From positions 2,137,501-2,201,500 of the forward strand of contig LVEI03000001.1 of the NCBI GenBank assembly GCA_001595385.3: a DNA stretch of 64,000 bases. The letters are read 5' to 3'. The DNA is from Deltaproteobacteria bacterium GWC2_55_46. GTDB lineage: Bacteria > Desulfobacterota > GWC2-55-46. Below the pieces are notes generated by a model. It had not been told where the DNA came from and searched no databases. It saw only the letters and a list, made by a program, of their open reading frames with translations. Positions 32,486-46,353 of the stretch are shown here, piece after piece. Within the stretch, counting starts at the first letter, position 1, and the number at the start of each line of letters is the position of its first letter. A program made the translations under genes and the position numbers.

Positions 32486-33505
32486 CTAACATATCCTCGG
32501 CAACTGCTCCCCTGAGAGCATGTCGAGTATCCGCCTGTTTCCGATCGAGGTCTCAAGGAGCACCTTGCCCCTGGGCCCCTCCTCGACGGCCCCGATGATG
32601 GCCGCGTCCTTGCCAAGCGGGTGGGAACGCATCGCCGCAAGCACCTTTAGGGCAGAATCGCCTGAGGTCACGGCCACGAGCTTGCCTTCGTTGGCGAGAT
32701 AGAGCGGGTCGAAGCCCAGTATCTCGCACGCGCCCTTTACCGCCTCTTTAACCGGTATATCTTCTTCCCTTATCGCTATGGCAGAGCCTGCTGAAGCCGC
32801 GAACTCATTGAGCACCGTTGCGAGCCCGCCCCTTGTCGGGTCCCTCATCGCCTTTATGCCGGAAGGGACAGCGGCGAGCATGGCCCTTGTAAGGGTGTGG
32901 AGCGCGGCGCAGTCGCTTTCAACAGGCGATTCCATCTGAATGCCTTCTCTGTGGGTAAGGATCGCTATGCCGTGGTCGCCCATCGTCCCTGAGACGATTA
33001 CAGCGTCACCGGGGCGTATGTTGGCTGGCGTAAGCGTTTCCGTGCCGTTCAGTACGCCGATCCCGGCGGTATTTATGAAGAGCTTGTCTCCCTTGCCGCG
33101 TTCGACCACCTTCGTATCCCCGGTCACTATCTTGACCCCTGCCGCCTCAGCTGTTTTTGCCATGGAATGGACGACCCTTTCAAGTTCGTCCATCCCAAGC
33201 CCTTCTTCTATTATGAACGAGGCGCTCAGGTATACGGGCTCGGCCCCGCCTACCGCGAGGTCGTTTATCGTCCCGCATACAGAGAGCTTGCCGATATCCC
33301 CGCCAGGGAAGAAGATGGGCTTTACCACGTAAGAGTCTGTCGTGAAGGCGAGCCTGTCCGCTGGAAGAGTGAATACGGCCTGGTCGTTGAGCGGGGCGAG
33401 GAACTCGTTCGAGAAGGCCTTCGCGAAGACTTCCTCTACGAGCCTCCTTGAGTAGCTCCCGCCGCTTCCGTGCGCAAGCAGTATGATCTTGTCTTTTCTT
33501 GTCAT
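32486..33505 (-). CDS. hypE: Hydrogenase maturation protein HypE
   Basis: Dehydrates the S-carboxamide on its C-terminal Cys to a thiocyanate, the cyanide donor for the Ni-Fe active site; the carbamoyl group comes from HypF. 339 residues from Met 33505. Purine/AIR-synthase-like fold with LLAHGSGGSYSRRLVEE, FTTDSYVV, GTINDLAVGGA, DPTRGGLATVLNE and the invariant C-terminal PRIC ending in Cys. The ATG overlaps the hypD stop (ATGA) and has AAGGTGGC upstream. Last gene of the maturation operon. Confidence 0.96.
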   Translation of the reverse strand: MTRKDKIILLAHGSGGSYSRRLVEEVFAKAFSNEFLAPLNDQAVFTLPADRLAFTTDSYVVKPIFFPGGDIGKLSVCGTINDLAVGGAEPVYLSASFIIEEGLGMDELERVVHSMAKTAEAAGVKIVTGDTKVVERGKGDKLFINTAGIGVLNGTETLTPANIRPGDAVIVSGTMGDHGIAILTHREGIQMESPVESDCAALHTLTRAMLAAVPSGIKAMRDPTRGGLATVLNEFAASAGSAIAIREEDIPVKEAVKGACEILGFDPLYLANEGKLVAVTSGDSALKVLAAMRSHPLGKDAAIIGAVEEGPRGKVLLETSIGNRRILDMLSGEQLPRIC

Positions 33506-34593
33506 GCCACCTTCCTGTACTTGAAGAACGCCGCGCAGGTGCCCTCTGAAGAGACCATGCACGGGCCTATGGGGAACTCAGGCGTGCAGGCCCTGGCAAA
33601 GAGCGGGCACTTATCCGGCGTCATCAGTCCCTTGAGCACCGAGCCGCACATGCAGCCCTTTGGTTCCTCGTCCTTGCCGCGCGGTATTGAGAACTTCCTT
33701 TCGGCGTCAAACTCAGAGAAACCATCCTTTATCCTGAGGCCGCTTCCCGGTATGTTGCCTATCCCTCTCCAGAGGCTGTCGCCAGGCTCGAATACGCTAT
33801 CCATTATCTCCTGCGCTTTTTTGTTGCCATCCCAGGTGACGACCCTGTCGTACTCTATCTCGATGGCCTGCCTTCCCTCTTCGAGCTGTCTTACGAGCAT
33901 GTATATGCCCATGAGCGCGTCTATAGGCTCGAAACCCGCCACCACGCACGGAGAGCCGTACTCGCTTGCAAGGAAGCCGTATGAGCTGGCGCCTATGATG
34001 GCCGTGACGTGGCCCGGGCAGATGAAGCCGTCTATCTCTATCTCGCCGCTGTCCATCAACGCCTTCATCGCCGGGGGCGTAAGCTTATGGAGAGAGAGGA
34101 CCGAGAGGTTTTTTATCCCCTCTTCTTTCGCGGCGAGTATCGTCGCCGCTACCGTCGGCACGGTCGTCTCGAAGCCCACGGCGAAGAGCACCACCTCGCG
34201 CTCTCTATTGGACCTGGCGATATCTATCGCCCCAAGCGGCGAATAGACGACCCTTATGTCGCTCCCGCGGGCCTTCTCTTCCTGCAGGGAAGATGCTGAG
34301 CCGGGGACCTTCATCATGTCCCCGAATGTCGCTATGATGGCGTCTTTCCGGGACCTGCTGAACTCGATTACGCGGTTCACGTCGGCGGCTGATGTAACGC
34401 AGACCGGGCAGCCGGGCCCCGATATGAGCTTGATGTTTTTCGGCAGGGCGTCCCTTATGCCGTATTTGGATATGGAATGGGTGTGCGTGCCGCAGATCTC
34501 CATTATGCTTACGTCTTTGCGCGAGATCTCGCGTATCTTCGTGATGAGCCCCTGCGCCTCATCCCTTTTCCTGAACTCGTCTATGTACTTCAT
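33502..34593 (-). CDS. hypD: Hydrogenase maturation protein HypD
   Basis: Iron-sulphur protein on which, with HypC, the Fe(CN)2CO unit is assembled. 363 residues. Conserved motifs MEICGTHTHSI, SGPGCPVCVT, AVGFETTVPT, GFICPGHVTAIIG and the cluster Cys near the C-terminus (CPLFARACTPEFPIGPC). It overlaps hypC upstream and hypE downstream by four bases each (ATGA), so the three are translationally coupled. Confidence 0.96.
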   Translation of the reverse strand: MKYIDEFRKRDEAQGLITKIREISRKDVSIMEICGTHTHSISKYGIRDALPKNIKLISGPGCPVCVTSAADVNRVIEFSRSRKDAIIATFGDMMKVPGSASSLQEEKARGSDIRVVYSPLGAIDIARSNREREVVLFAVGFETTVPTVAATILAAKEEGIKNLSVLSLHKLTPPAMKALMDSGEIEIDGFICPGHVTAIIGASSYGFLASEYGSPCVVAGFEPIDALMGIYMLVRQLEEGRQAIEIEYDRVVTWDGNKKAQEIMDSVFEPGDSLWRGIGNIPGSGLRIKDGFSEFDAERKFSIPRGKDEEPKGCMCGSVLKGLMTPDKCPLFARACTPEFPIGPCMVSSEGTCAAFFKYRKVA

Positions 34594-34805
34594 AGCCCCG
34601 CTATCCCCCTTATGAGGCGGAGAGTTTCTTCCGCCTTCTCCTCATCTACCTTCTCGATGGCGAAGCCCGCGTGGATTATGACGTACTCTCCGGCCCTGAC
34701 ATCCTTCATCAGCCTGACGTTAGCCTCTTTTCTTGTGCCGGCAACATCGACCATGGCCACGTCGCCTTTTACCTCGATTATCTTACCTGGAATGCCAAGA
34801 CACAT
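34590..34805 (-). CDS. hypC: Hydrogenase maturation chaperone HypC
   Basis: Small chaperone of 71 residues that carries the iron-diatomic ligand complex to the large-subunit precursor. It starts MCLGIPGKIIEV with the essential Cys2, followed by a small barrel (MVDVAGTRKEANVRLM) and the C-terminal helix VDEEKAEETLRLIRGI. The stop overlaps the hypD start. It lies five bases behind hypF. Confidence 0.95.
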   Translation of the reverse strand: MCLGIPGKIIEVKGDVAMVDVAGTRKEANVRLMKDVRAGEYVIIHAGFAIEKVDEEKAEETLRLIRGIAGL

Positions 34806-34810
34806 TTTTA

Positions 34811-37123
34811 TTACCTTCCTTTTACGTTCTCCCAGGCGACAACCGCCTGGCCGAGGGAGATGCCCCCGTCGTTCGCAGGGACCCTCTCCTGCGCATATAC
34901 AGTAAACCCTTTCCCGGCAAGCCCCTCGGCGATGATAGTTGAAAGGAGCCTGTTCTGGAATACGCCTCCGCTTAAGACCGCTGTATTGATGCCGGTCTCA
35001 ACGCGCAAGGCCTCGCAAGCCTTTACGGACAGATCCGCGATCGTAGAATGGAACCTGCCGGAGATAATCGATCCTGGCATGCCGTTGTTTACGTCCTCGG
35101 CCATGGCCATGATGATCGGAGCGGTCTCTATCCGCATGGGGGCGCTGCCGGCAAACTCGAAAGGATAGGGGCTTGATCCATCTCCGCCTATATCCGCGAT
35201 CGCTTCGAGCTCAATGGCGGCTTCTGCCTCAAAGGTTATCTCATCCCGTATACAAGCGATAGACGAAGCCGCGTCAAAGAGCCTGCCCATGCTCGATGTG
35301 AAGGGCGAGTTGACCCCCTTATGGACCATCGACGCGACAAGCTCTGCCCTGGGGCCTATCCTTTCCGCGAAGCCACGGAGCGCCTCCCATCCGCATGACC
35401 CGCCGTAAGAATCAACAAGATACGAGATGGCCATCCGCCACGGCTCTTTTACGGCCGTATCCCCTCCGGGGAGCCGGACGTACTTGAGGTGCGCGGCCCT
35501 CCTGAACTCGCGCCTTGAGGCTATGAGGAACTCTCCGCCCCAGATCCTGCCGTCCGTGCCGAGGCCAGTGCCGTCAAAGGAGAGACCGATGACCTCGCTG
35601 GAAAGACCGTGCTCGGCCATCGCGCTGGCGATGTGGGCGTGGTGGTGCTGTACGGGTATTATCCTTTCAGCCGGGATCTTTTTCTCCTTCGCGTACTCAA
35701 GGGCGAACCTGGTGCTGAGATAATCCGGATGGAGGTCGTGCGCGACGACCGTTGGCTCGGCCCTGAAGGTGTTCTTGAGGTTTCTGAGCGTTTCCTGATA
35801 GAACTCAAGGGCCTGGAAGTTCTCAAGGTCGCCGATGTGCTGGCTCAAGATCGCGTTCCTGCCCCTGGTCAGGCAGAACGTGTTCTTAAGGAGCGCGCCG
35901 GCGGCGAAGACATCTTCCATCTCAGCGCCAAGGTCGATTGCGTCAGGGGCGTAGCCGCGCGCCCTTCGGAGTACCTTCTTTTTGCCGGAATCGATCCTCG
36001 CGATAGAGTCGTCGACCCTCATGTATATATCCCTGTCGTGGAAGAGGAAGTGGTCAGCGATCCCGGAAAGCCTCTTTAAGGCCTCATCGTTCGATACGAC
36101 TATAGGCTCTTCCGCGAGGTTGCCGCTTGTCATGACGAGCGCCTTGAAAGAAGCCCCGGCGAAGAGAAGGTAATGGAGCGGGGTGTACGGGAGCATCACG
36201 CCGAGGCGGTTGTTCCCGGGCGCTACCGCCTCATCGAGGATGGACGGCGTTTTCTTCCTCAAAAGGACGATAGGCCTTCTCCTGTCAGTGAGCGCGTCTT
36301 CCTCTTTATCGTCAAGCTCGCAGAACTCTCTTATTGAGGCGACATCCGTGGCCATAAGGGCGAAGGGCTTGTTCGAGCCGCGCCTTTCATTCTTAAGTGA
36401 TCTGCGCTTCCTGTCCCTGAGCTTTCTTACCGCATCGTGGTTTTGAGCGTCGCAGGCGAGGTGAAATCCCCCAAGCCCCTTTATCGCGAGTATCTTGCCT
36501 TCTTTAAGGAGCCTCTGTGCCTCGACTATAGCCTCGAAGTCCTTTCCCGTATCAGCGTCGTGGAGCCAGGCCCTGGGGCCGCAAGCTGGACAGGCGTTTG
36601 GCTGGGCATGGAACCTCCTGTCAGCCGGGTCATGGTATTCGCCCTCGCATTCCGGGCACATCCCGAAGGGCGCCATGGTGGTCTTGGGCCTGTCGTAAGG
36701 TATGTCGAGTATGATCGAGTACCTCGGCCCGCAGTTGGTGCAGTTGATGAAAGGATAGTGAAAACGCCTGTCAGACGGGTCGAGCAACTCACGGAGGCAG
36801 TCGTGGCATATAGCCACGTCAGGGGATACGAGGACGAACTTCCCGTCAACGGGCCTGCTCTCGCGTATGGTGAAGGAGCTGTAGCCGCCGCTCTGCTCGA
36901 CCTGCTCTACTGTGATGGCCTCTATCCTCGAAAGCGGCGGCGGAGAAGCCCTCAGCTCGTCTATGAAAGAATCGACAGAGTCGCCCTGGACCTCTATTAC
37001 GACCCCTTCTGAATCGTTCAGGCAGTAGCCGGTGAGGTTATGCCTCGCCGCGAGGTTGTAGACATAGGGGCGAAATCCCACTCCCTGCACTATGCCCGAT
37101 ATATGTATCCTTGCGCTATCCAT
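34811..37123 (-). CDS. hypF: Carbamoyltransferase HypF
   Basis: Uses carbamoyl phosphate and ATP to make the carbamoyl group for the cyanide ligands and transfers it to HypE. About 770 residues. Acylphosphatase-like domain (IHISGIVQGVGFRPYVY), two zinc-finger pairs (CHDCLREL ... CTNCGPRYS; CPECEGEY ... CPACGPRAW), a YrdC/Sua5-like domain and a Kae1-like domain with IPVQHHHAHIASAMAEHG. Start Met 37123 is used because the acylphosphatase domain begins just after it and GGAAGC lies upstream; it overlaps the hypB end by eight bases. Confidence 0.95.
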   Translation of the reverse strand: MDSARIHISGIVQGVGFRPYVYNLAARHNLTGYCLNDSEGVVIEVQGDSVDSFIDELRASPPPLSRIEAITVEQVEQSGGYSSFTIRESRPVDGKFVLVSPDVAICHDCLRELLDPSDRRFHYPFINCTNCGPRYSIILDIPYDRPKTTMAPFGMCPECEGEYHDPADRRFHAQPNACPACGPRAWLHDADTGKDFEAIVEAQRLLKEGKILAIKGLGGFHLACDAQNHDAVRKLRDRKRRSLKNERRGSNKPFALMATDVASIREFCELDDKEEDALTDRRRPIVLLRKKTPSILDEAVAPGNNRLGVMLPYTPLHYLLFAGASFKALVMTSGNLAEEPIVVSNDEALKRLSGIADHFLFHDRDIYMRVDDSIARIDSGKKKVLRRARGYAPDAIDLGAEMEDVFAAGALLKNTFCLTRGRNAILSQHIGDLENFQALEFYQETLRNLKNTFRAEPTVVAHDLHPDYLSTRFALEYAKEKKIPAERIIPVQHHHAHIASAMAEHGLSSEVIGLSFDGTGLGTDGRIWGGEFLIASRREFRRAAHLKYVRLPGGDTAVKEPWRMAISYLVDSYGGSCGWEALRGFAERIGPRAELVASMVHKGVNSPFTSSMGRLFDAASSIACIRDEITFEAEAAIELEAIADIGGDGSSPYPFEFAGSAPMRIETAPIIMAMAEDVNNGMPGSIISGRFHSTIADLSVKACEALRVETGINTAVLSGGVFQNRLLSTIIAEGLAGKGFTVYAQERVPANDGGISLGQAVVAWENVKGR

Positions 37124-37787
37124 CTTGCTTCCCGTTTTCCCTGACAAGCCCGGCAAGGTATCCGGCCCATGCGCTCACCCCGGCGCCGGTCCTGCACGAG
37201 GTCTCGAATATCTTTAGATACGGGTTGACCTTTAACGCGTTCTCCCGTGCCCTGTCGATATCGAAGTCTGTATGGGGGGCGAGGTCTGTCTTGTTTATTA
37301 TGAGGGCCTCGGATGCGCTGAAGATGGCAGGGTATTTAAGGGGCTTGTCATCCCCTTCCGTGGTCGACATGACCGTGACCATCATATCCTCGCCCAGGTC
37401 GTACTCCGCAGGGCAGACCATGTTGCCGACGTTCTCTATTACAAGGAGGTCTATTGGACGCTCGAAGACCCACGGCAGGGCGTGGCTTATCTGGTGGGCG
37501 TCGAGGTGGCAGGCCCTGCCGGTGGTTATCTGCAAGGCGGGGATCCCGTGCCGCTCTATCCTCCTGGAATCGAAGTCCCCTTCGAGGTCGCCTTCGACTA
37601 CCGCGAACCTTACGCCAAGCGATCCAAGCTCAGCGGCCATCCGCTCGATAAGAGAGGTCTTGCCGGCGCCCGGCGCGCTTACGATATTTATCGTGTAGAT
37701 ATTATTCCGAGCGAGCGCCTTTCTGTTCTCTGCCGCTATCTCGTCGTTCTTCGCGAGTATCTTTTCTTCTATGAGTATCTCGTGCAT
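37116..37787 (-). CDS. hypB: Hydrogenase nickel incorporation GTPase HypB
   Basis: GTPase that drives nickel insertion into the hydrogenase large subunit with HypA. 223 residues. P-loop SAPGAGKTSLIERM, metal-binding GRACHLDAHQISHALP, switch VIENVGNMVCPAEYDLGED and NKTDLAPH. The N-terminus has neither the CxxCGC motif nor a His-rich nickel-storage stretch found in some homologues, so it is the short form. It is directly adjacent to the hypA stop and overlaps hypF. Confidence 0.95.
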   Translation of the reverse strand: MHEILIEEKILAKNDEIAAENRKALARNNIYTINIVSAPGAGKTSLIERMAAELGSLGVRFAVVEGDLEGDFDSRRIERHGIPALQITTGRACHLDAHQISHALPWVFERPIDLLVIENVGNMVCPAEYDLGEDMMVTVMSTTEGDDKPLKYPAIFSASEALIINKTDLAPHTDFDIDRARENALKVNPYLKIFETSCRTGAGVSAWAGYLAGLVRENGKQDG

Positions 37788-38129
37788 CTAAGCGCCTTCC
37801 ATCGATATTATGTCAAGCTCTGTCCCGCCGACCCTGTCAATGGACGTACTGCCGCACCCGGGGCAGGTGTTATCGAACGAGGTTATCCTGAACCTGGAGG
37901 CGCACCCGCGGCAGAGGCCTGTAAGAGGCACCTCCTCTATTTCAAGCGCCGCGCCTTCAAACGGGGTTCCCTTTATAGAGATCTCGAAGCAGAACCTCAA
38001 TGCCTCAGGCTCCACGGCCGTGAGCTCTCCTATCCTCAGGCGCACCTTGTAAAGGCGCGCGAGGGCGGCCCTGTCCATCTCTCGCTTTACCGCCTCGAGG
38101 ACGCTCTTTGTTATTGACATCTCGTGCAT
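37788..38129 (-). CDS. hypA: Nickel metallochaperone HypA
   Basis: 113 residues. It begins MHEMSITKSVLEAV with the nickel-binding Met-His, and has the structural zinc ribbon CRGCASRFRI and CPGCGSTSID. It works with HypB in nickel delivery. It is immediately adjacent to hypB and two bases behind the protease gene. Confidence 0.95.
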   Translation of the reverse strand: MHEMSITKSVLEAVKREMDRAALARLYKVRLRIGELTAVEPEALRFCFEISIKGTPFEGAALEIEEVPLTGLCRGCASRFRITSFDNTCPGCGSTSIDRVGGTELDIISMEGA

Positions 38130-38131
38130 GG

Positions 38132-38632
38132 TTATTCCCTGGCCGATACCTTGAACCCGCTGGTCTCCAGCTCTTTTCTTATGGCCTCTGCCACAAGCGG
38201 CAGGGCTTTTTTTATTACAGGGGTAAGCTCAAGGCCCGCAGAGATATCCTTCGGGATGACCCCGATTATTACAAGTTCAGGGCTCAAGCCCTGGAACCTG
38301 GCTATCTCTATCAGGTCTCTTAGGCCGATCTGGTGGGCGGTAGAGGATTTGAGGGAGGGCCACTTCCGGACCTCTTCCCATGGTATGCGGAAGAGCTTTC
38401 CAGGCTCTCCATTTGCTGCGACCGCGTCAACGATGATGAGATGAGAAAAGTCCTTTATATACGAGAGGAGCCCCAGCCCGGAGGTGCCGCCGTCAAGGCA
38501 TGTCACTTCCTTGCCGAAGCTGTATCGCTCAGCAAAGTACTCTATCGCCCTTACCCCGAGCCCCTCGTCCTTGAGGAGCACATTACCGATCCCGAGCACG
38601 AGGGCCTTCTTCCGCTTCCGCTTTGCCATCAT
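38132..38632 (-). CDS. Ni-Fe hydrogenase maturation endopeptidase (HyaD/HupD family)
   Basis: Cleaves the C-terminal peptide of the hydrogenase large subunit after nickel insertion. About 166 residues; LVLGIGNVLLKDEGLGVRAI carries the nickel-sensing Glu, SHLIIVDAVAANG the Asp, and SSTAHQIGLRDLIEIA the His. The start is one of two adjacent ATG codons (38632/38629) behind a Lys/Arg-rich beginning. It leads the maturation operon. No hydrogenase structural gene lies beside it; the upstream neighbours are on the other strand. Confidence 0.9.
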   Translation of the reverse strand: MMAKRKRKKALVLGIGNVLLKDEGLGVRAIEYFAERYSFGKEVTCLDGGTSGLGLLSYIKDFSHLIIVDAVAANGEPGKLFRIPWEEVRKWPSLKSSTAHQIGLRDLIEIARFQGLSPELVIIGVIPKDISAGLELTPVIKKALPLVAEAIRKELETSGFKVSARE

Positions 38633-38757
38633 CAACAAGGGGTATGAGGCCGTATGATTATTATAATTTATTTTAACAGAAAAAGGCTTTCAATCCAAAC
38701 AATAAAGTCTTGTAAATACAAGGAATTGAGGATTATAATAGCCCTGCCCCGCGCCTC

Positions 38758-38909: not shown

Positions 38910-39023
38910 ATGAAGAGCGTTTTCATATTCATAGTATCCTCCATAGGCTTCCTGGCCTTCTTTCTTGTCATGGACGCGCTCCTTCTGAACGCTCAGGGGC
39001 TGAGCTTCATATTCAGGGGCTGA
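38910..39023 (+). CDS. 37-residue membrane peptide heading the CydA-like operon
   Basis: MKSVFIFIVSSIGFLAFFLV followed by MDALLLNAQGLSFIFRG and TGA. It has one membrane helix and an AGGTAAG ribosome site directly before the ATG. The CydA-like gene starts 10 bases behind its stop, so it is cotranscribed and translated with it. Small single-helix subunits (CydX, CydS, CcoQ) are common partners of terminal oxidases, so an accessory subunit is a reasonable guess. No sequence identity to CydX is claimed. Confidence 0.55.
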   Translation: MKSVFIFIVSSIGFLAFFLVMDALLLNAQGLSFIFRG

Positions 39024-39033
39024 GGGGGGCTGG

Positions 39034-40809
39034 ATGGCCTATTCAAGGAGATCGCTGATAAAGCTCCTATCCCCCTGCCTTACGCTCATCGCGTTGGTCC
39101 TTGTCGCGTACTCGATCGTAAACTTCCAGTCCTATTTTTCCTGGGGCCCGGAGTCCATATCCGGCGCGCCTGTCCTGGGGCAGGGCGACTACCCGTTGGT
39201 CTCCCACGTGAACGGCAGGCTCGCCGTGTGGATGGCCGCGCAGATGCACCTGTGGTTCGCGGCCTTTGTGCTGGCCGTGCCGATATTCGTCCTCATGCTC
39301 GAGGTCATAGGCGTTGTCAAGAAAGAGAAGAGATACGACCGTGTGGCCTATGAGTTCCTGAGGGTCAGCATCACCGCCTTCTCACTTACGGCGATAACAG
39401 GCGGTCTCCTCTTGCTTACGCTCCTCGTATTCTACCCGGACCTCATGAAGTACCTGTTGTCGATATTCGGCCCGACGACGCTCCTGTACGCGCTCTTCTT
39501 TTTCTTCGAGTCCGCGTCCCTCTATACATATTACTACGGCTGGAAGCGTATGAGCGAAGGCTGGCTCAAGTGGGCGCACATCGGGGTAGGGCTCGCGCTC
39601 AACTCCGCCGGGACAGCCCTCATGTTCGTAGCCAACGCCTGGGTGACCTTCATGATGACGCCGGATGGGGTCGATGCGGCAGGCGTGTTCAGAGGGGACC
39701 TCTGGGCGGCGGTAACGAACCACCTGTGGAGCCCTATGAACCTCCACAGGTTCATAGCCAATATCGCCTACGGCGGGTCGATAGTAGGCGCGTACGCCGC
39801 CTACAGGTTCCTCGGCGCCGCCACAGATGATGAGAAGGCGCACTATGACTGGATGGGCTACACCGCGAGCCTCATAGCCATAGGCGCTCTCCTGCCTCTG
39901 CCTTTCGCTGGCTATTGGCTAACCGCCGAAATATACGCCTTCAGCCAGCAGATGGGCATCACCCTCATGGGAGGTGTATTCGCATGGCTTTTCATCGTAC
40001 AGGCGGTCTTGATAGGCGCGCTCTTCCTCGCCGCCAATTATTATCTCTGGTGCGGCTTCGGCAGGAGCCCTGCTGGCGAAAGATACCTGCGGTACGTTAA
40101 GTACATAGCCTTCGTGATAGCCGCCTCTTTCCTTGTATGGTTCACACCGCATACCCTGATACTTACCCCTCAAGAGGCGAGGGCCCTTGGCACTCAGTAC
40201 CATCCATACCTTGGCCCCCTCGGGCTCATGCCGGCCAAGAACACGGCCGTAAACATCATGCTCCTTTTTACATTCCTGTCCTTCATCCTCTACAGGAGGG
40301 CGCAGAGGACCCCGACGGTGGCGTGGGCCGGGTACGGGAAAGCGCTCCAGGCAGGGCTTTTCACCGCGGCTATCGTCAATATCGTCTTCCTCGGGGTCTA
40401 TTACGGCTACTTCACCAACAGCCTCTACAAGGTGGCTTCATCGGTCCCGCAGGTAGCCACTACCATATTCGTCATCATAGCCTGCCTCGTGATAGAAGGG
40501 CTCATGCACAGGGGCGCTACAAAACATGATTTCACCTGGGGGCGCATGCCCGGGAGGAGCCAGTACGCGCTCATCCTCATAGCCGTCTCCTTCACATGGC
40601 TTATGGGGCTCATGGGTTTTGTCCGCTCGGCCATCAGGCAGCAGTGGCATGTCTACTCTGTCATGAAGGACGCCTCACCCGACGCCTTTACGCCTTCCAT
40701 CGCCTACGCCGCAAAGGTGGTATCAGTCGGGACTATCATATTCCTCTCCATAGTCGTCTTTATCTTCTGGCTCGGCGGCCTCGGGGCGAAAGCGGAGGCC
40801 GATGAATAA
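39034..40809 (+). CDS. CydA-like membrane protein (cytochrome bd oxidase subunit I homologue)
   Basis: 591 residues with about 13-14 transmembrane helices. HVNGRLAVWMAAQMHLWFAA matches the helix that holds the haem b595 ligand (His72). FFFFESASLYTYYYGW matches the E. coli region around Glu107 (here Glu159), but the second haem d-site Glu eight residues earlier is Leu151. At the place of the haem b558 His (KFVHT in E. coli) it reads HRFIANI, with Ala242. The C-terminal VRSAIRQQWHVYS resembles GRQPW. So the family is clear but key haem/quinol features seem changed. No cydB follows; three c-type cytochrome genes do. It overlaps the next gene by eight bases. It may take electrons from cytochrome c. 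Confidence 0.8.
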   Translation: MAYSRRSLIKLLSPCLTLIALVLVAYSIVNFQSYFSWGPESISGAPVLGQGDYPLVSHVNGRLAVWMAAQMHLWFAAFVLAVPIFVLMLEVIGVVKKEKRYDRVAYEFLRVSITAFSLTAITGGLLLLTLLVFYPDLMKYLLSIFGPTTLLYALFFFFESASLYTYYYGWKRMSEGWLKWAHIGVGLALNSAGTALMFVANAWVTFMMTPDGVDAAGVFRGDLWAAVTNHLWSPMNLHRFIANIAYGGSIVGAYAAYRFLGAATDDEKAHYDWMGYTASLIAIGALLPLPFAGYWLTAEIYAFSQQMGITLMGGVFAWLFIVQAVLIGALFLAANYYLWCGFGRSPAGERYLRYVKYIAFVIAASFLVWFTPHTLILTPQEARALGTQYHPYLGPLGLMPAKNTAVNIMLLFTFLSFILYRRAQRTPTVAWAGYGKALQAGLFTAAIVNIVFLGVYYGYFTNSLYKVASSVPQVATTIFVIIACLVIEGLMHRGATKHDFTWGRMPGRSQYALILIAVSFTWLMGLMGFVRSAIRQQWHVYSVMKDASPDAFTPSIAYAAKVVSVGTIIFLSIVVFIFWLGGLGAKAEADE

Positions 40810-41317
40810 CCTCATCAAGGCCGCCCTCTTTAGCCTTCTCATAATCGGCCTCTATACATTCTATTCGGCTGTCGTCATCCCGCCGATCGCGACGGAGGAG
40901 CAACCGTTGGAGGGGCTGGCTGGCGAAAGCATCAAGACCGTCGACGACCTCGTAGCCCTCGGCGAGGCCGTTTATAACGGCAAGGGGGCGTGCGCCCTCT
41001 GCCACAACCCGCAGGGAGGCAGGGCCCCAATGCTTGAGAACTCAGCCCATTTGGCCGGTGAGAGGATAAAGGCCCCTGGGTACAGAGGCAAGGCGACGGA
41101 TGCCGAGGGCTATCTCTACGAATCTCTCGTTGAGCCCTCTGCCTATGTCGTGCCAGGCTTCGGGACGAGCGGAAGCGGGGACATGGCAAGCCCGATGCCG
41201 GACGTAAGGAGCAGGTCAATCGGACTCGACGAGACCGAGATAAAGGCGGTCATCGCCTATCTGCAGAGCGTTTCAGGCGTTGATATAACCGTCAAGGTAG
41301 AGGGGGCGGGGGAATGA
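40802..41317 (+). CDS. Membrane-anchored monohaem cytochrome c
   Basis: 171 residues. One N-terminal helix (AALFSLLIIGLYTFYSAVVI) acts as signal anchor, then a periplasmic class I-like cytochrome domain with haem site Cys64-Cys67-His68 (GACALCHNPQGG) and a candidate distal Met in DMASPMPDVRS. It ends with LDETEIKAVIAYLQSV, the usual C-terminal helix. Overlaps the CydA-like gene (8 bases) and the next gene (4 bases, ATGA), so it belongs to the same complex or electron path. Confidence 0.88.
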   Translation: MNNLIKAALFSLLIIGLYTFYSAVVIPPIATEEQPLEGLAGESIKTVDDLVALGEAVYNGKGACALCHNPQGGRAPMLENSAHLAGERIKAPGYRGKATDAEGYLYESLVEPSAYVVPGFGTSGSGDMASPMPDVRSRSIGLDETEIKAVIAYLQSVSGVDITVKVEGAGE

Positions 41318-42060
41318 AGCTACTTAACTACATCCTCATAAACCTCTGCTTCTACGCCATCCTCAAGGCGCCTGGGCTTCTCATGGGCAAGCCCATACCT
41401 GGAAGCGTCATCTCGATGTACATGTTCTTTATCGTCATCACCGTCCTCCTTGTGATGACGGTAACCGACAGGGGCGTTGAGGCGCTTTTCGCGCCATTGA
41501 GGGCGCTTGTAGAAGACCCGTCAAAGGCGATCTTAAGGAATATCGTTTTCATAATACTCCCTGTCGCAGCCGGCTACATCGCTTATACCCAGTCCGGCAA
41601 GGCCTCTGTGCCGCCTGTAGAGCTGAGGAGCGCGCACCCGGCCCCTCCTGCCGTCTTCAAGGCCTATGGCAAGGAGTTCGACCTCTCCACGCTTGAGAAC
41701 CCATACAGGAAGATGGAGAAGGCGGACCCTGCGGCCTTCAAGGACCTCATAGAAGACGGCGGTGAGGTCTATTTCAAGAACTGCGTTTTCTGCCACGGCG
41801 CGAAGCTCGACGGCAGGGGCCATTACGCCCACGCGCTCGACCCGCTGCCCATGCCGTTCACAGGCGGCGACACGATAGCGCAGCTCCAGGAATCGTACGT
41901 CTTCTGGAGGGTGGTGAAGGGCGGCCCCGGGCTCCCGAGGGAAGGCGGCCCGTCAATATCGTCCATGCCGTCATGGGAGGGCTCTCTTTCGGAAGATGAG
42001 GTCTGGAAGGTGATACTCTTCCTTTACGACTATACCGGGAACAGGCCGAGGATCTGGTGA
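41314..42060 (+). CDS. Three-span membrane protein with C-terminal cytochrome c domain
   Basis: 248 residues. Three hydrophobic helices in the first 92 residues (ILINLCFYAILKAPGLL, SVISMYMFFIVITVLLVMTV, IVFIILPVAAGYIAYT), then a periplasmic cytochrome c domain with Cys157-Cys160-His161 (NCVFCHGAKLDGRGHY) and SSMPSWEGSLSEDEVWKVIL as the Met-containing C-terminal part. It is tightly coupled with its neighbours: ATGA overlap upstream and one-base gap downstream. Probably an electron-transfer subunit feeding the CydA-like protein. Confidence 0.87.
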   Translation: MKLLNYILINLCFYAILKAPGLLMGKPIPGSVISMYMFFIVITVLLVMTVTDRGVEALFAPLRALVEDPSKAILRNIVFIILPVAAGYIAYTQSGKASVPPVELRSAHPAPPAVFKAYGKEFDLSTLENPYRKMEKADPAAFKDLIEDGGEVYFKNCVFCHGAKLDGRGHYAHALDPLPMPFTGGDTIAQLQESYVFWRVVKGGPGLPREGGPSISSMPSWEGSLSEDEVWKVILFLYDYTGNRPRIW

Positions 42061-42061
42061 T

Positions 42062-43573
42062 ATGCTCTTAAGGCCGTTTATAGCGCTTTTGATGCTTGCC
42101 GCCTTTACAGGCCAGTCCTCCTTCGCGGCGGAAGGGCTTGAGAACGGGAAGGCTATCTATGAGAAGAGGTGCTGGTGGTGCCACGGCAAGGAAGGCGCCG
42201 GTGACGGCCCTGCCTCACAACACTTAAACCCGCCGCCCAGGGACTTGACCCTCGGCCTCTATAAATGGAAGTCCACTCCTTTCGATGAGCTTTCGCCTTC
42301 TGATGATGACTTTTATAATATGATAGCCGGTGGCCCTGACAGGGGTATACATGGCTGGACAGGCCTTGGCGACACCTCGATGCCAGGCTGGGCCGACCTG
42401 CTGAGCCGGCAGGATATCAAAGACGTTGCCGCCTATATAAAGACCTTCGCGGGGCTTGAAAAGGCTCTGAAGCCCCCGGTAAGCCTCTCAGGCAAGATAT
42501 CTCCTGACAAGGATGGACTTCTAAGCGGCAGGAAGCTTTTCAAGGATAACTGCTCTGAATGCCACGGAGAAGCCGGCAGGGGGGATGGCACAAAAAAGCT
42601 CAAGGACGACTGGGGAGCGAGGACCTGGCCGAGGGACCTTACCAAGGGCTGGACCTTCAGGATGGGGAATAGACCCGAGGATATATACACACGGGTAACA
42701 GTCGGTATCCCCGGCACCCAGATGCCGAGCTTCGCTGACCCGGCCTCCAGGAAGGTCATGACAGAGGCCGAGCGGTGGGAGGTGGCCAATTACGCAGCCT
42801 CGCTTGACGAGCCGGAAAGAAGACCTGTTACCGGGGTGCTTAAGGCCGTGAAAACAGATGGCAGCGCGCCAACTCAAGCGAGCGACAGGATATGGGACAG
42901 GGCAGGGTACGCGACCTACCACCTCTTCCCGCAGATAATCGCCGGAGAACGGGCATATACGCCTTCGTTAAACTCGGTTTCAATAAAGGCGGTCTATGAT
43001 CAATCGGATATCGCGTTCCTGATCGAGTGGGACGACCCTACAAACTCGATGCCCTGGGATGAGAAGGCTCAGCGGATAGCGGATGGCGTGCCCTTCCCGG
43101 ACGGCTTTGCGATACAGTTTCCGGCAGAGATAAAGGGGGCCGAAAGACCTTACTTCGGGATGGGCGGCCCCAAGCCGGTAGCCATCTGGTCGTGGCAAAG
43201 CCCCGGGTCAGAGGATTCCGGGCAGACCGTCAAGTCAATAGAGGCAAGAGGGGCCGGCAGGCTCTCGCAGATCGACGATCACGGGGTTTCAGCTACAGGA
43301 GCGTATGAGAACGGCAGGTGGCGCGTGGTGGTGAAAGGGCCGTTACGGCCCGGCAAGGGACCTGTTCTCGAAGAGGGAAGGTTCATCCCCGTCGCCTTCG
43401 CGGCATGGGACGGGTCTAACGGGGATAACGCCGGGAAGCATGTGATGACAGGCTGGGAGTGGGCGGTCCTTGAAAAAGAAGCTCCCCGGTCCTTCAATAT
43501 ATGGCCCTTCGCGATAGGCGCCCTCGTCTTCGCAGCCGAGATGTTCTGGCTATTTAGCGCCCGGAGAAGGTAG
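42062..43573 (+). CDS. Dihaem cytochrome c fused to an ethylbenzene-dehydrogenase-type haem b domain
   Basis: 503 residues. Signal peptide (about 1-23), cytochrome c domain 1 with Cys37-Cys40-His41 (CWWCHGKEG), domain 2 with Cys164-Cys167-His168 (CSECHGEAG), each with a Met-containing helix (SMPGWADLLS; TQMPSFADP), then about 200 residues beginning VSIKAVYDQSDIAFLIEWDD of the type found in gamma subunits of ethylbenzene dehydrogenase and related enzymes, and a C-terminal helix (FAIGALVFAAEMFWLF) anchoring it to the membrane. It closes the CydA-like operon and probably receives electrons from a periplasmic partner. The bidirectional hairpin at 43590 follows. Confidence 0.87.
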   Translation: MLLRPFIALLMLAAFTGQSSFAAEGLENGKAIYEKRCWWCHGKEGAGDGPASQHLNPPPRDLTLGLYKWKSTPFDELSPSDDDFYNMIAGGPDRGIHGWTGLGDTSMPGWADLLSRQDIKDVAAYIKTFAGLEKALKPPVSLSGKISPDKDGLLSGRKLFKDNCSECHGEAGRGDGTKKLKDDWGARTWPRDLTKGWTFRMGNRPEDIYTRVTVGIPGTQMPSFADPASRKVMTEAERWEVANYAASLDEPERRPVTGVLKAVKTDGSAPTQASDRIWDRAGYATYHLFPQIIAGERAYTPSLNSVSIKAVYDQSDIAFLIEWDDPTNSMPWDEKAQRIADGVPFPDGFAIQFPAEIKGAERPYFGMGGPKPVAIWSWQSPGSEDSGQTVKSIEARGAGRLSQIDDHGVSATGAYENGRWRVVVKGPLRPGKGPVLEEGRFIPVAFAAWDGSNGDNAGKHVMTGWEWAVLEKEAPRSFNIWPFAIGALVFAAEMFWLFSARRR

Positions 43574-43639: not shown

Positions 43640-43843
43640 CTATCCTTTTCTCGATCGCCAGCTGCCTGCGGCTATGAAGACGGCTCCGATAGAGGCCATT
43701 ATGAAGTAGAAGGGGTCCGGGGCTGAGTTGGATTTTGTGTTGAGGAGTATGTTTATGAGGGCGAGGGAGACGAGGACAGCGCCGATGACACGGCTTCCAG
43801 CGCCTTTTTTGAGTGTTTTTTCTTCCTGGCCTTTGTCCATCAC
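43640..43843 (-). CDS. Small two-span membrane protein
   Basis: 67 residues: a charged N-terminus (DKGQEEKTLKKGAGS), helix VIGAVLVSLALINILL, a short loop and helix FYFIMASIGAVFIAAGS, ending WRSRKG. The start overlaps the radical SAM stop (ATGA), so it is the last gene of that operon. Family not recognised. Confidence 0.65.
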   Translation of the reverse strand: MMDKGQEEKTLKKGAGSRVIGAVLVSLALINILLNTKSNSAPDPFYFIMASIGAVFIAAGSWRSRKG

Positions 43844-45054
43844 CTGCCTGTCTTCTCCCTGAGTTCGGCCATCAGTTCAGGCGTGATGACCCTTATCCCT
43901 TTTGCGGCGGCATAGCGCTCAAGCCCTTTCTTTATCATCGGGCGTATGAACGCCGGAGCTTTTTTAAGCCTCTCTTCGGCCTCAACGCTCCATGCCGGGG
44001 CAGAGGACTTTTCCTTTATGATATTGCCAACAGGCTCGTGCGCGCACCATGGGTCTTCGTTCATGAGGTCGCCTGTGGTGGCCAGCGCCCTGGCCCTGCA
44101 GCCGCCGCAGCCTTGAGCGTACTCGCACTCGCCACATCTGCCCTTGTGTCTTGGGGCCCGAAGCGAGACAAAGTCGCGGTCTTCGTCCCAGATGCCCTTA
44201 AGGGAGCTGCTTTTGAGGTTGGGAGAGTCAGCCCTTGCGGGTATGTAAGGGCAGGGCGTTACAAAGCCCTCTGGCGAGATCCTGAGATAACCGTCCCCTG
44301 CTATGCAGCCGCTTGTGCCGCCCTTTATTAGAGAGCTACTGTTGTTCACCGAACCTGCTATCCTCACGATGTGCGGGGCGCACCGCGCCCTTACCATTAT
44401 CCTCCCTTTATATTCCTCTTCCTTTTGGACGATAAGGCGGAGTACGGATTCGTACTCGACGGGTGAAAGGTCGGTCGATCGCTGCCCACGGCCGGTGCAG
44501 ACGAGGAAGAAGAAGTTTACGGCCTTTGCCCCGTGTGAATAAGCGAAGTCGATGAAAGAGGCGACCTCTTCCTTGTTCTCTTTCATGACCGTGAACTGCA
44601 GTTGAAAGGGGATGGGAGAGGCTGAGAGCGCCTCTATGCCGCCGCACGCCTTTGTCCACGCGCCCTCCATCCCCCTTACGCGGTCATGGAGGGCGGGGGA
44701 GAGCGAATCTACGCTTACGCCAGCGCCCTGGATACCGGCTTCAGTAAGTCTTTTGACTATTTCATCCGTAAGGAGGGTCCCGTTGGTGCCGAGTACCGGG
44801 GAAAGGCCAAGGGAGGCGGCCCGCGATGAGATATCGAATATGTCGTGCCTTAAAAGCGGCTCTCCGCCCGTCAATACGAGCATGCAGCCGGGGGCGAGTT
44901 CCGCTATCTCATCGAGAAATGAGTTGGCCTCAACCGTAGAGACGGCGTCGGCCCCGGTAAGCTCACTCGAGTCGAGGTAGCAGTGGCCGCAGGCGAGGTT
45001 GCACCGTTTTGTGGTGTTCCAGGAGACGATGAATGGCCGGGAGGCGTCCGTCAT
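43840..45054 (-). CDS. Radical SAM/SPASM protein with PCP_red-like C-terminal domain (AhbD/NirJ-like)
   Basis: 404 residues. Radical SAM cluster Cys18-x3-Cys22-x2-Cys25 (CNLACGHCYL), GGEPLLR, and a SPASM-type C-terminal Cys array (GGTSGCIAGDGYLRISPEG ... CGECEYAQGCGGCRARA). This is the layout of AhbC/AhbD/NirJ enzymes of alternative haem or haem d1 synthesis. After it come about 55 residues, ERLKKAPAFIRPMIKKGLER ... ITPELMAELREK, that look like the PCP_red domain named from protochlorophyllide reductase. The upstream Usp gene ends in the same domain. It overlaps both neighbours by four bases. The substrate is not certain. Confidence 0.85.
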   Translation of the reverse strand: MTDASRPFIVSWNTTKRCNLACGHCYLDSSELTGADAVSTVEANSFLDEIAELAPGCMLVLTGGEPLLRHDIFDISSRAASLGLSPVLGTNGTLLTDEIVKRLTEAGIQGAGVSVDSLSPALHDRVRGMEGAWTKACGGIEALSASPIPFQLQFTVMKENKEEVASFIDFAYSHGAKAVNFFFLVCTGRGQRSTDLSPVEYESVLRLIVQKEEEYKGRIMVRARCAPHIVRIAGSVNNSSSLIKGGTSGCIAGDGYLRISPEGFVTPCPYIPARADSPNLKSSSLKGIWDEDRDFVSLRAPRHKGRCGECEYAQGCGGCRARALATTGDLMNEDPWCAHEPVGNIIKEKSSAPAWSVEAEERLKKAPAFIRPMIKKGLERYAAAKGIRVITPELMAELREKTGR

Positions 45055-46220
45055 CCTTCGAGTTTCTTCCTTACCCTGCGCATGAGGTCAGGGGTTACTT
45101 CAAGGAGTCCTTCTTTTTTCGCGGTATCTTCTATTACGCGCTTTACAACACCCCTCGCGAACTTCGGTATGCGCGACAGAAGCGCCTTCGCCTCTTCAGT
45201 CCAGGCAAGGGAGCCGTCCTTGTGGCCTATCTCCGGGGTGAACTCCGTTGACGAGACGAGCACGTGGCAGCGGACGTTCCGTAAGCAGTTCTCTATATTG
45301 GAGCCTATGTCGAGGCCGGCTACCGCGTGCGCGCCGGTCCTCCCTGCTGCGAGCATGAACGGAGCGGTCTTCCTGGCGTGGCGTATGACCTCTTCAGAGG
45401 CCTTGCCGGCAAGAAGGGTCGTCTTTATCCTCTTCCCACGGGACGCGGCCACCTTCTCAGCCGTCTCAAGGTGCCCCATGTAGAGCTTCGCGAGCCCCTT
45501 GTCTATTATCTCGTCATGGAGCTTCTCCTGCTCCTTGAACCTGAAGAGCTTGCCGGCCTCCTCTGTGAGGACCCCCGCTATGGAACGGAAAGCCGACTGG
45601 TGGAAGACCGGGTCAAAGGCGCTTACGGCCTCTATGTCGCAATCGAATATCCCGGAGAGCTCGATGGCCCTCAAGAGGGCGCCGAAGGAGGCGGGACTGC
45701 CGTCTATGGCGACCATGATGCCCTTGCCTGTGTCCGCGCCTTCCTGTGTAAGGAGGACGTCGGTGCGGACCCGCCGCACCACCCTTTCGGCTACGCTCCC
45801 GATGCTGCTCGTACCGGTCCTGCCGAGTCCGAGGAGCCCCATGGCAACGAGGTCATACGGGCACTCGGAGACCTCTTTTACTATCTCCTCGAAGTTTTTC
45901 CCTTCCCTGTCTACGCCCTTGACCTCCAGCCCCGCGGCCATAGCCTGGAATACAGACATGTAGGAGTCGGAGATAATCTTGAGGCCCTTTGTTATGAGCG
46001 TGTCATGGACCTCTCGGGTGTTCCTGAGTATCTCTTCCTGCCTGTATTCTTGAGGCAGGCCGTCCTCCATCTCGATGAACCGCGTGTTGTGGAGCTTTGC
46101 CGCGTACACATGGCAGCCGGTGAGTAATGCTCCGCGCGCGCGCGCTATCTCGATTGCGAGGGCGGAGGCGGCGTTGGAATGGTTTGAGTTGTCCAGGCAG
46201 ACGAGGATATTTTTGTACAT
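45051..46220 (-). CDS. Tandem universal stress protein with PCP_red-like C-terminal domain
   Basis: About 389 residues. Two Usp domains: the first begins MYKNILVCLDNSNHSNAASA and ends with GLGRTGTSSIGSVAERVVRR (ATP-binding glycine motif); the second begins KGIMVAIDGSPASFGALLRA and ends with GRTGAHAVAGLDIGSNIENC. The tail, EEAKALLSRIPKFARGVVKR ... LEVTPDLMRRVRKK, has the PCP_red pattern (P-x-F-x-R-x-x-x-(K/R) ... ITP-x-(L/M)). A GTG at 46244 would add eight residues; the Met at 46220 is where Usp domains normally start. It is first in an operon with the radical SAM gene (ATGA overlap). Confidence 0.87.
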   Translation of the reverse strand: MYKNILVCLDNSNHSNAASALAIEIARARGALLTGCHVYAAKLHNTRFIEMEDGLPQEYRQEEILRNTREVHDTLITKGLKIISDSYMSVFQAMAAGLEVKGVDREGKNFEEIVKEVSECPYDLVAMGLLGLGRTGTSSIGSVAERVVRRVRTDVLLTQEGADTGKGIMVAIDGSPASFGALLRAIELSGIFDCDIEAVSAFDPVFHQSAFRSIAGVLTEEAGKLFRFKEQEKLHDEIIDKGLAKLYMGHLETAEKVAASRGKRIKTTLLAGKASEEVIRHARKTAPFMLAAGRTGAHAVAGLDIGSNIENCLRNVRCHVLVSSTEFTPEIGHKDGSLAWTEEAKALLSRIPKFARGVVKRVIEDTAKKEGLLEVTPDLMRRVRKKLEG

Positions 46221-46353
46221 ACGGAGTATTTTATCCCAATTCACGGCCGTAGAAAAGGTTTTTGAAGGCAGAATGCCCTGGTGGCCCCGGGGTTATGAAT
46301 GCCTGGGGGATGATGACTACGGGTGGAAGGGTTACTTATGGTATGTATCTTTA

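Follow-up and report, generated by a model that had tools for sequence, protein, structure and literature searches.

A single-copy bd-like operon with cytochrome c subunits in Deltaproteobacteria bacterium GWC2_55_46: probably a cytochrome c:O2 reductase, possibly with a modified haem

Introduction

From what donor would a CydA homologue that is encoded beside three c-type cytochromes, and without the partner subunit CydB, receive its electrons, and what would it reduce? The question is raised by a five-gene operon at positions 38910 to 43573 of a 64,000-nucleotide stretch of the genome of Deltaproteobacteria bacterium GWC2_55_46 (contig LVEI03000001.1, positions 2,137,501 to 2,201,500, forward strand; hereafter the window). 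The operon is a single-copy variant of the OR-N/bd-like arrangement, without a detected periplasmic nitrite oxidoreductase (NXR), and on balance its product is probably a membrane-bound cytochrome c:O2 oxidoreductase with a CydA core of the OR-N (bd-like) type, homologous to the Nitrospira bd-like_3/alt_NxrC_2 complex. The same gene set has been published from Nitrospira, Nitrospina and the anammox bacterium Kuenenia (PMC3578206, PMC6606698), and OR-N enzymes have been proposed as cytochrome c-oxidising O2 reductases (PMC10839748). The group matters because in Nitrospira and Nitrospina its bd-like proteins are proposed to act as the main terminal oxidases, a role for which experimental proof is lacking.

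Results

A compact operon around a CydA-like protein

The operon consists of five genes (lengths in amino acids, aa):

38910..39023, + strand: mini-subunit, 37 aa, with a single transmembrane helix (hydrophobic segment 3-21; homologues just upstream of the cydA-like gene)
39034..40809, + strand: CydA-like core subunit, 591 aa, ~14 transmembrane helices, bd-like/OR-N group (PF01654, model, alignment, tree)
40802..41317, + strand: cytA, c-type cytochrome with an N-terminal anchor and one CxxCH motif (PF00034, E 2e-6)
41314..42060, + strand: cytB, c-type cytochrome with an estimated ~three N-terminal transmembrane helices and one CxxCH motif (PF13442/PF00034)
42062..43573, + strand: alt-NxrC-like subunit with two cytochrome c domains, an EB_dh (haem b) domain and a C-terminal transmembrane anchor (PF00034, PF13442, PF09459 E 1.5e-17)

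The first two genes lie 10 bases apart, the second and third overlap by 8 bases and the third and fourth by 4, and a single base separates the last two. Both the reading frames and the spacing agree with a first-pass annotation of the window, which had described five tightly packed genes for a mini membrane protein, a CydA homologue and three c-type cytochromes; taken as a whole that observation is partly confirmed, its gene layout being right and some of its residue calls wrong.

The core subunit matches PF01654 at 75 bits (cut-off 26.2; E 6e-21), and its AlphaFold2 model (predicted local distance difference test, pLDDT, 86; predicted template modelling score, pTM, 0.86), which has ~14 long helices, fits CydA chains with Z scores of 31-34 across ~350 residues, the best being CydA of cytochrome bd-II (Z 34.3, 354 residues). 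Profile match and fold thus bear out its identification as a CydA homologue. The next-best fold is subunit C of alternative complex III (Z 18), and in the model extra helices occupy the place of the canonical Q-loop.

Loss of the quinol site and retention of haem-site residues

In cytochrome bd, the E. coli CydA residues His186 and Met393 are ligands of haem b558 and Glu445 is a ligand of haem b595; His19 lies on the haem d side, Glu99 belongs to the haem d site, Glu107 to the proton path, and Lys252 and Glu257 to the quinol site. These residues were mapped with MAFFT and with a profile-profile alignment (hhalign) that spans the N-terminal half, where both methods pair His72 with His19, Tyr152 with Glu99, Glu159 with Glu107 and His238 with His186, and all four residues are invariant in a 61-sequence alignment of relatives. 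The first-pass annotation had correctly seen the retention of His72 and of one haem d-site Glu (Glu159) and the loss of the other Glu, but had placed Leu151 at the latter position, one residue away from the true Tyr152. Its assignment of Ala242 to the b558 His was mistaken, as two independent alignments put the invariant His238 there, and its argument from a missing b558 ligand fails because that His is kept. It had also named, as evidence that would count against it, a conserved b558 His at another position together with both Glu residues; the His is found at 238, but Glu99 is replaced by Tyr152.

The quinol-site residues Lys252 and Glu257 correspond in the MAFFT alignment to Gly308 and Gly313, uniformly across the group. 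In the C-terminal half, which is less securely aligned and was mapped by MAFFT alone, Met393 falls on Ile450 and Glu445 on Leu526, with no Glu nearby, so that the b595 Glu is apparently missing and Leu526 stands in its place. Further invariant residues have no CydA counterpart (His182, His373, His390, His539 and Met399) and are candidate haem ligands.

In the tree, the bd-like proteins split from 18 quinol-oxidase CydA proteins with support of 100/100, and the group holding the present protein is supported at 98/96. This places the protein outside the quinol oxidases, in the OR-N/bd-like group, with OR-N preferred to OR-C on the lack of CxxCH in the CydA-like protein and its match to Nitrospirota bd-like genes.

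These residues also bear on a quinone-linked role, suggested in the literature for the cluster of Nitrospina and Nitrospira (PMC3578206, PMC6606698), in which the complex would transfer electrons without a terminal reductase, either in the manner of alternative complex III or in reverse electron transport. Retention of the b558-type His238 and the second-ranking fold match to alternative complex III are in keeping with such a role, but an invariant Gly stands in place of each of the quinol-site Lys and Glu, and the haem-d-side His and the Glu107 equivalent, both superfluous in a complex that only transfers electrons, are invariant too, making this role unlikely.

Cytochrome c subunits and the mini-subunit

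The EB_dh domain is that of the haem-b gamma subunit of type II dimethyl sulfoxide (DMSO)-reductase-family enzymes. It is found here in the alt-NxrC-like subunit, which also matches TIGR03477 (E 5e-27), has a transmembrane helix at 480-498 and carries two CxxCH motifs, both of them invariant together with the axial Met. The last gene product, with its two cytochrome c domains and EB_dh domain, is therefore the dihaem/haem b subunit that had been proposed. The single CxxCH motif of cytB and its Met218 are invariant in 65 sequences, and in cytA a CxxCH motif and the axial Met132 are invariant in 72 sequences; 53 of these 72 have two CxxCH motifs while the present protein and its close relatives have one, so a haem c of cytA appears to have been lost or gained inside the family. 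Two Nitrospirota loci (L266:3628-5877 and L267:1021-3318) encode cytB and alt-NxrC as a fusion of ~750 aa with three CxxCH motifs, which supports contact between the two subunits.

Homologues of the 37-aa protein are encoded just 5' of the cydA-like gene in related loci, giving 29 sequences with its own, and they share a conserved Asp22 and a QGLS-type C-terminus. This conservation rejects the alternative of a chance reading frame. The protein is CydX-sized, without evident similarity to CydX.

Distribution of the gene set

A scan of genome contigs recovered 80 related loci, nearly all with the order cydA-cytA-cytB-altNxrC, which is shared by Deltaproteobacteria-like, Pseudomonadota, Nitrospinota and Nitrospirota genomes. 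More than 20 loci, mostly proteobacterial, contain all or part of a second, diverged four-gene set upstream, whose CydA-like protein of ~720 aa (for example in L025-L056 and L078) has insertions at points that follow approximately residues 174 and 456 of the window protein. PF01654 matches are present in 41 of the 48 genomes of the order sample, and a protein of the present kind (E below 1e-100) in 13 of 198 sampled genomes of the phylum. The locus in L078, a metagenome-assembled genome (MAG) labelled Dehalococcoidia, is near-identical to Acidiferrobacteraceae loci L031 and L037, and this MAG is probably mis-binned.

Nitrospirota were sampled across the phylum, and some of them contain four bd-like genes per genome. 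One of their clusters (L262, L264), which combines a pair of bd-like genes with the genes of two cytochromes c and of a 621-aa dihaem EB_dh protein, corresponds to the published bd-like_4, bd-like_3 and alt_NxrC_2 (PMC6606698). Another (L263) includes a cytochrome b of complex III, in agreement with the published description of bd-like_1/2 (PMC6606698). Because the clusters match the published set, these genomes are taken to be Nitrospira; the CydA-like protein of the window is 49% identical to that of L262, its putative Nitrospira counterpart.

Other oxidases and nitrogen enzymes of the genome

Profile searches covered the complete genome (2.79 Mb, 100% complete) and found in it no cydB (PF02322) and no second CydA, the copy in the operon being the only one, so the earlier statement that a subunit II gene is absent holds genome-wide. 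Several heme-copper oxidases are encoded, and every one of the 48 order-sample genomes has COX1-family matches (above the cut-off in 45), which rejects the operon product as the only oxidase. The PF00384 proteins of the genome are a NarG-type nitrate reductase (1422 bits), an 886-aa enzyme and two complex I subunits. No periplasmic NXR is present among its molybdopterin proteins, the NXR-like molybdenum enzyme being NarG, and a tie between the complex and NXR in this genome was rejected for that reason. With several heme-copper oxidases and no periplasmic NXR found, the complex would be one respiratory option among several, independent of nitrite oxidation here.

A haem d1 locus (C1:698000-717000, L269) encodes two cytochrome cd1-type proteins, a NirJ/AhbC-like radical SAM protein and a NirF-like beta-propeller protein. 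At C1:1797037-1799697 (L125) lies the gene of an untyped 469-aa COX1-family protein (84 bits), adjoining a haem O synthase-like gene and that of a divergent 137-aa COX1-like protein; the 469-aa protein could be a nitric oxide (NO) reductase or an unusual oxidase.

The operon itself might encode a cytochrome c-dependent NO reductase, in which NO from a cytochrome cd1-type nitrite reductase would be reduced at the bd-like site. This would suit a genome with a narG-type nitrate reductase and two cytochrome cd1-type proteins, relatives of which several are groundwater MAGs or named sulfur oxidisers (Beggiatoa, Thiomargarita relatives), and the presence of the cluster in anammox bacteria (PMC3578206). 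The L125 protein could, however, fill that role itself, no signature of an NO reductase was recognised in the CydA-like protein, and Nitrospira strongly expresses the cluster during aerobic nitrite oxidation, when NO reduction is not the main flux (PMC6606698); NO reduction as the function of the operon is accordingly judged quite improbable. A scavenging or detoxification oxidase acting on O2, NO or peroxide without conserving energy, as raised for the group in PMC10839748 and suggested by the heme-copper oxidase matches alongside in 48/48 order-sample genomes and by linked universal stress protein (USP) genes, is very unlikely, as both the large conserved four-gene electron-transfer module and the high expression in Nitrospira (PMC6606698) suggest a respiratory role.

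Linked radical SAM and PCP_red genes

Downstream of the operon, three genes lie on the opposite strand:

43640..43843, - strand: 67-aa membrane protein (hydrophobic segment; homologues in the same place in L002, L003, L005, L008, L033 and L067)
43840..45054, - strand: radical SAM/SPASM protein with a C-terminal PCP_red domain, AhbD/NirJ2-like (below both model cut-offs)
45051..46244, - strand: double USP protein with a C-terminal PCP_red domain (PF00582 + PF08369)

The 67-aa protein is kept in near relatives, and its association with the operon is tentative. Among the 31 loci with at least 7 kb on each side, the radical SAM gene is linked in 21, and both it and the USP gene in 20; the orientation varies, and the loci belong to Deltaproteobacteria-like MAGs and to several proteobacterial ones. 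PCP_red proteins also occur by the bd-like operon in Nitrospirota (L264, L266, L268), so that the forms found beside such operons in several phyla include the radical SAM fusion, the USP fusion and small double-PCP_red proteins (43840-46244 - strand, L264:15016-15531, L268:4219-4818). In the phylum sample, PCP_red proteins in frames of ~385-470 aa are present in 13/13 operon genomes versus 2/185 others (Fisher P 1.4e-18, a value inflated by relatedness, with the size class picked after the data had been seen and the 2/185 read from a list).

With the AhbD and NirJ2 models, whose cut-offs are 500 bits, the radical SAM protein reaches 291 and 310 bits. A role as the housekeeping haem b synthase was rejected, since the true AhbD (530 bits) sits elsewhere, in the hem cluster of the genome, as was a role as the NirJ of the haem d1 locus, which has its own NirJ/AhbC-like enzyme. 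These two enzymes and the sub-cut-off scores point to the linked protein as a further member of the tetrapyrrole-modifying group, and it is a natural hypothesis that it acts on a cofactor of the bd-like complex. More specifically, the OR-N complex may contain a non-standard haem made or inserted by this third AhbD/NirJ-like radical SAM protein with its PCP_red (protochlorophyllide-reductase-type) domain and a USP-PCP_red partner, and PCP_red would be a cross-phylum signature of such complexes. This proposal is tentative and less likely than not, and roughly one in three of the loci with sufficient flank lacks the link. Open-licence papers yielded nothing relevant on a link between PCP_red, radical SAM proteins and oxidases.

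Upstream of the operon (33502-38638, - strand) are hypD, a small hypC-like gene, hypF, hypB, an hypA-like gene and a hydrogenase maturation protease gene, a neighbourhood retained in close relatives. An Rfam search of the window gave a tRNA as its sole match.

Discussion

In the favoured cytochrome c:O2 oxidoreductase, a periplasmic donor would reduce the haems of the alt-NxrC-like subunit (predicted to be two haem c and the EB_dh haem b), and electrons would then pass via the membrane-anchored cytA and cytB to periplasm-side haems of the CydA-like protein. O2 would be reduced at the haem site of His72 and Tyr152, with Glu159 as the proton-path carboxylate. Such an assembly would need neither CydB nor a quinol site, the extra helices would replace the Q-loop and the 37-aa protein would be a small accessory subunit. 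The core of this reading, a protein outside the quinol oxidases with electrons entering from cytochrome c or the haem b subunit, had been proposed in the first-pass annotation, and it is supported because the quinol site is lost, cydB is absent and the cytochrome c partners are invariant; the b558 part of the argument falls with His238, leaving that interpretation partly supported.

Several points weigh against the O2 reductase. Heme-copper oxidases are already present, so aerobic respiration as such does not require the complex; the apparent change of Glu445 to Leu526 leaves one active-site haem without an assigned ligand; OR-N enzymes are said still to await experimental confirmation (PMC10839748); and the published cluster is also found in the anaerobe Kuenenia (PMC3578206). 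As to O2 or NO as the substrate, the sequence favours neither decisively, and NO reduction and a quinone-linked role stand as less probable alternatives.

For the OR-N/bd-like group, both this gene arrangement and the cytochrome c hypothesis have already been published (PMC10839748, PMC12342949, PMC6606698, PMC3578206). Apparently new are the presence of such an operon in a lineage that has heme-copper oxidases and in a genome that yielded no periplasmic NXR, the conserved mini-subunit, and the cross-phylum link to PCP_red-domain proteins, including the third AhbD/NirJ-like radical SAM protein. A single-copy operon with a compact, fixed subunit set in such a genome indicates that the complex is separable from nitrite oxidation and offers a smaller system for expression of an OR-N bd-like complex, and the radical SAM/PCP_red genes give a testable lead to the haem used by these enzymes.

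Compared with E. coli CydABX, the complex shares the fold, the equivalents of His19, Glu107 and His186 and a one-helix small subunit of ~37 aa, but it lacks CydB and Lys252/Glu257, has Tyr152 for Glu99 and, less securely, Leu526 for Glu445, has extra helices for the Q-loop and adds cytochrome c and EB_dh subunits. The linked radical SAM protein is similar by score to AhbD, NirJ and NirJ2 but falls below the cut-offs and has the extra C-terminal PCP_red domain. As far as the OR-N family of Murali et al. 2021 is described in PMC10839748 and PMC12342949, it is likewise CydA-like and outside the quinol oxidases, with no quinol site and with cytochrome c partners, whereas OR-N1 and OR-N2 are there proposed to pair as CydAA' and a single CydA-like protein is encoded here. 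The bd-like protein of Nitrospina similarly has 14 helices, with helices in the place of the Q-loop (PMC3578206), and unlike the NXR-linked cluster of Nitrospina and Kuenenia the present one comes from a genome in which no periplasmic NXR could be found. The closest likeness is to the Nitrospira bd-like_3/bd-like_4 and alt_NxrC_2 cluster, which corresponds gene for gene in its CydA-like protein of ~14 helices with helices at the Q-loop, its two membrane cytochromes c and its alt-NxrC with two haem c motifs, EB_dh domain and transmembrane helix; it differs in having a pair of bd-like genes where there is one copy here and two haems in cytA where there is one, and the present operon has the mini-subunit in front.

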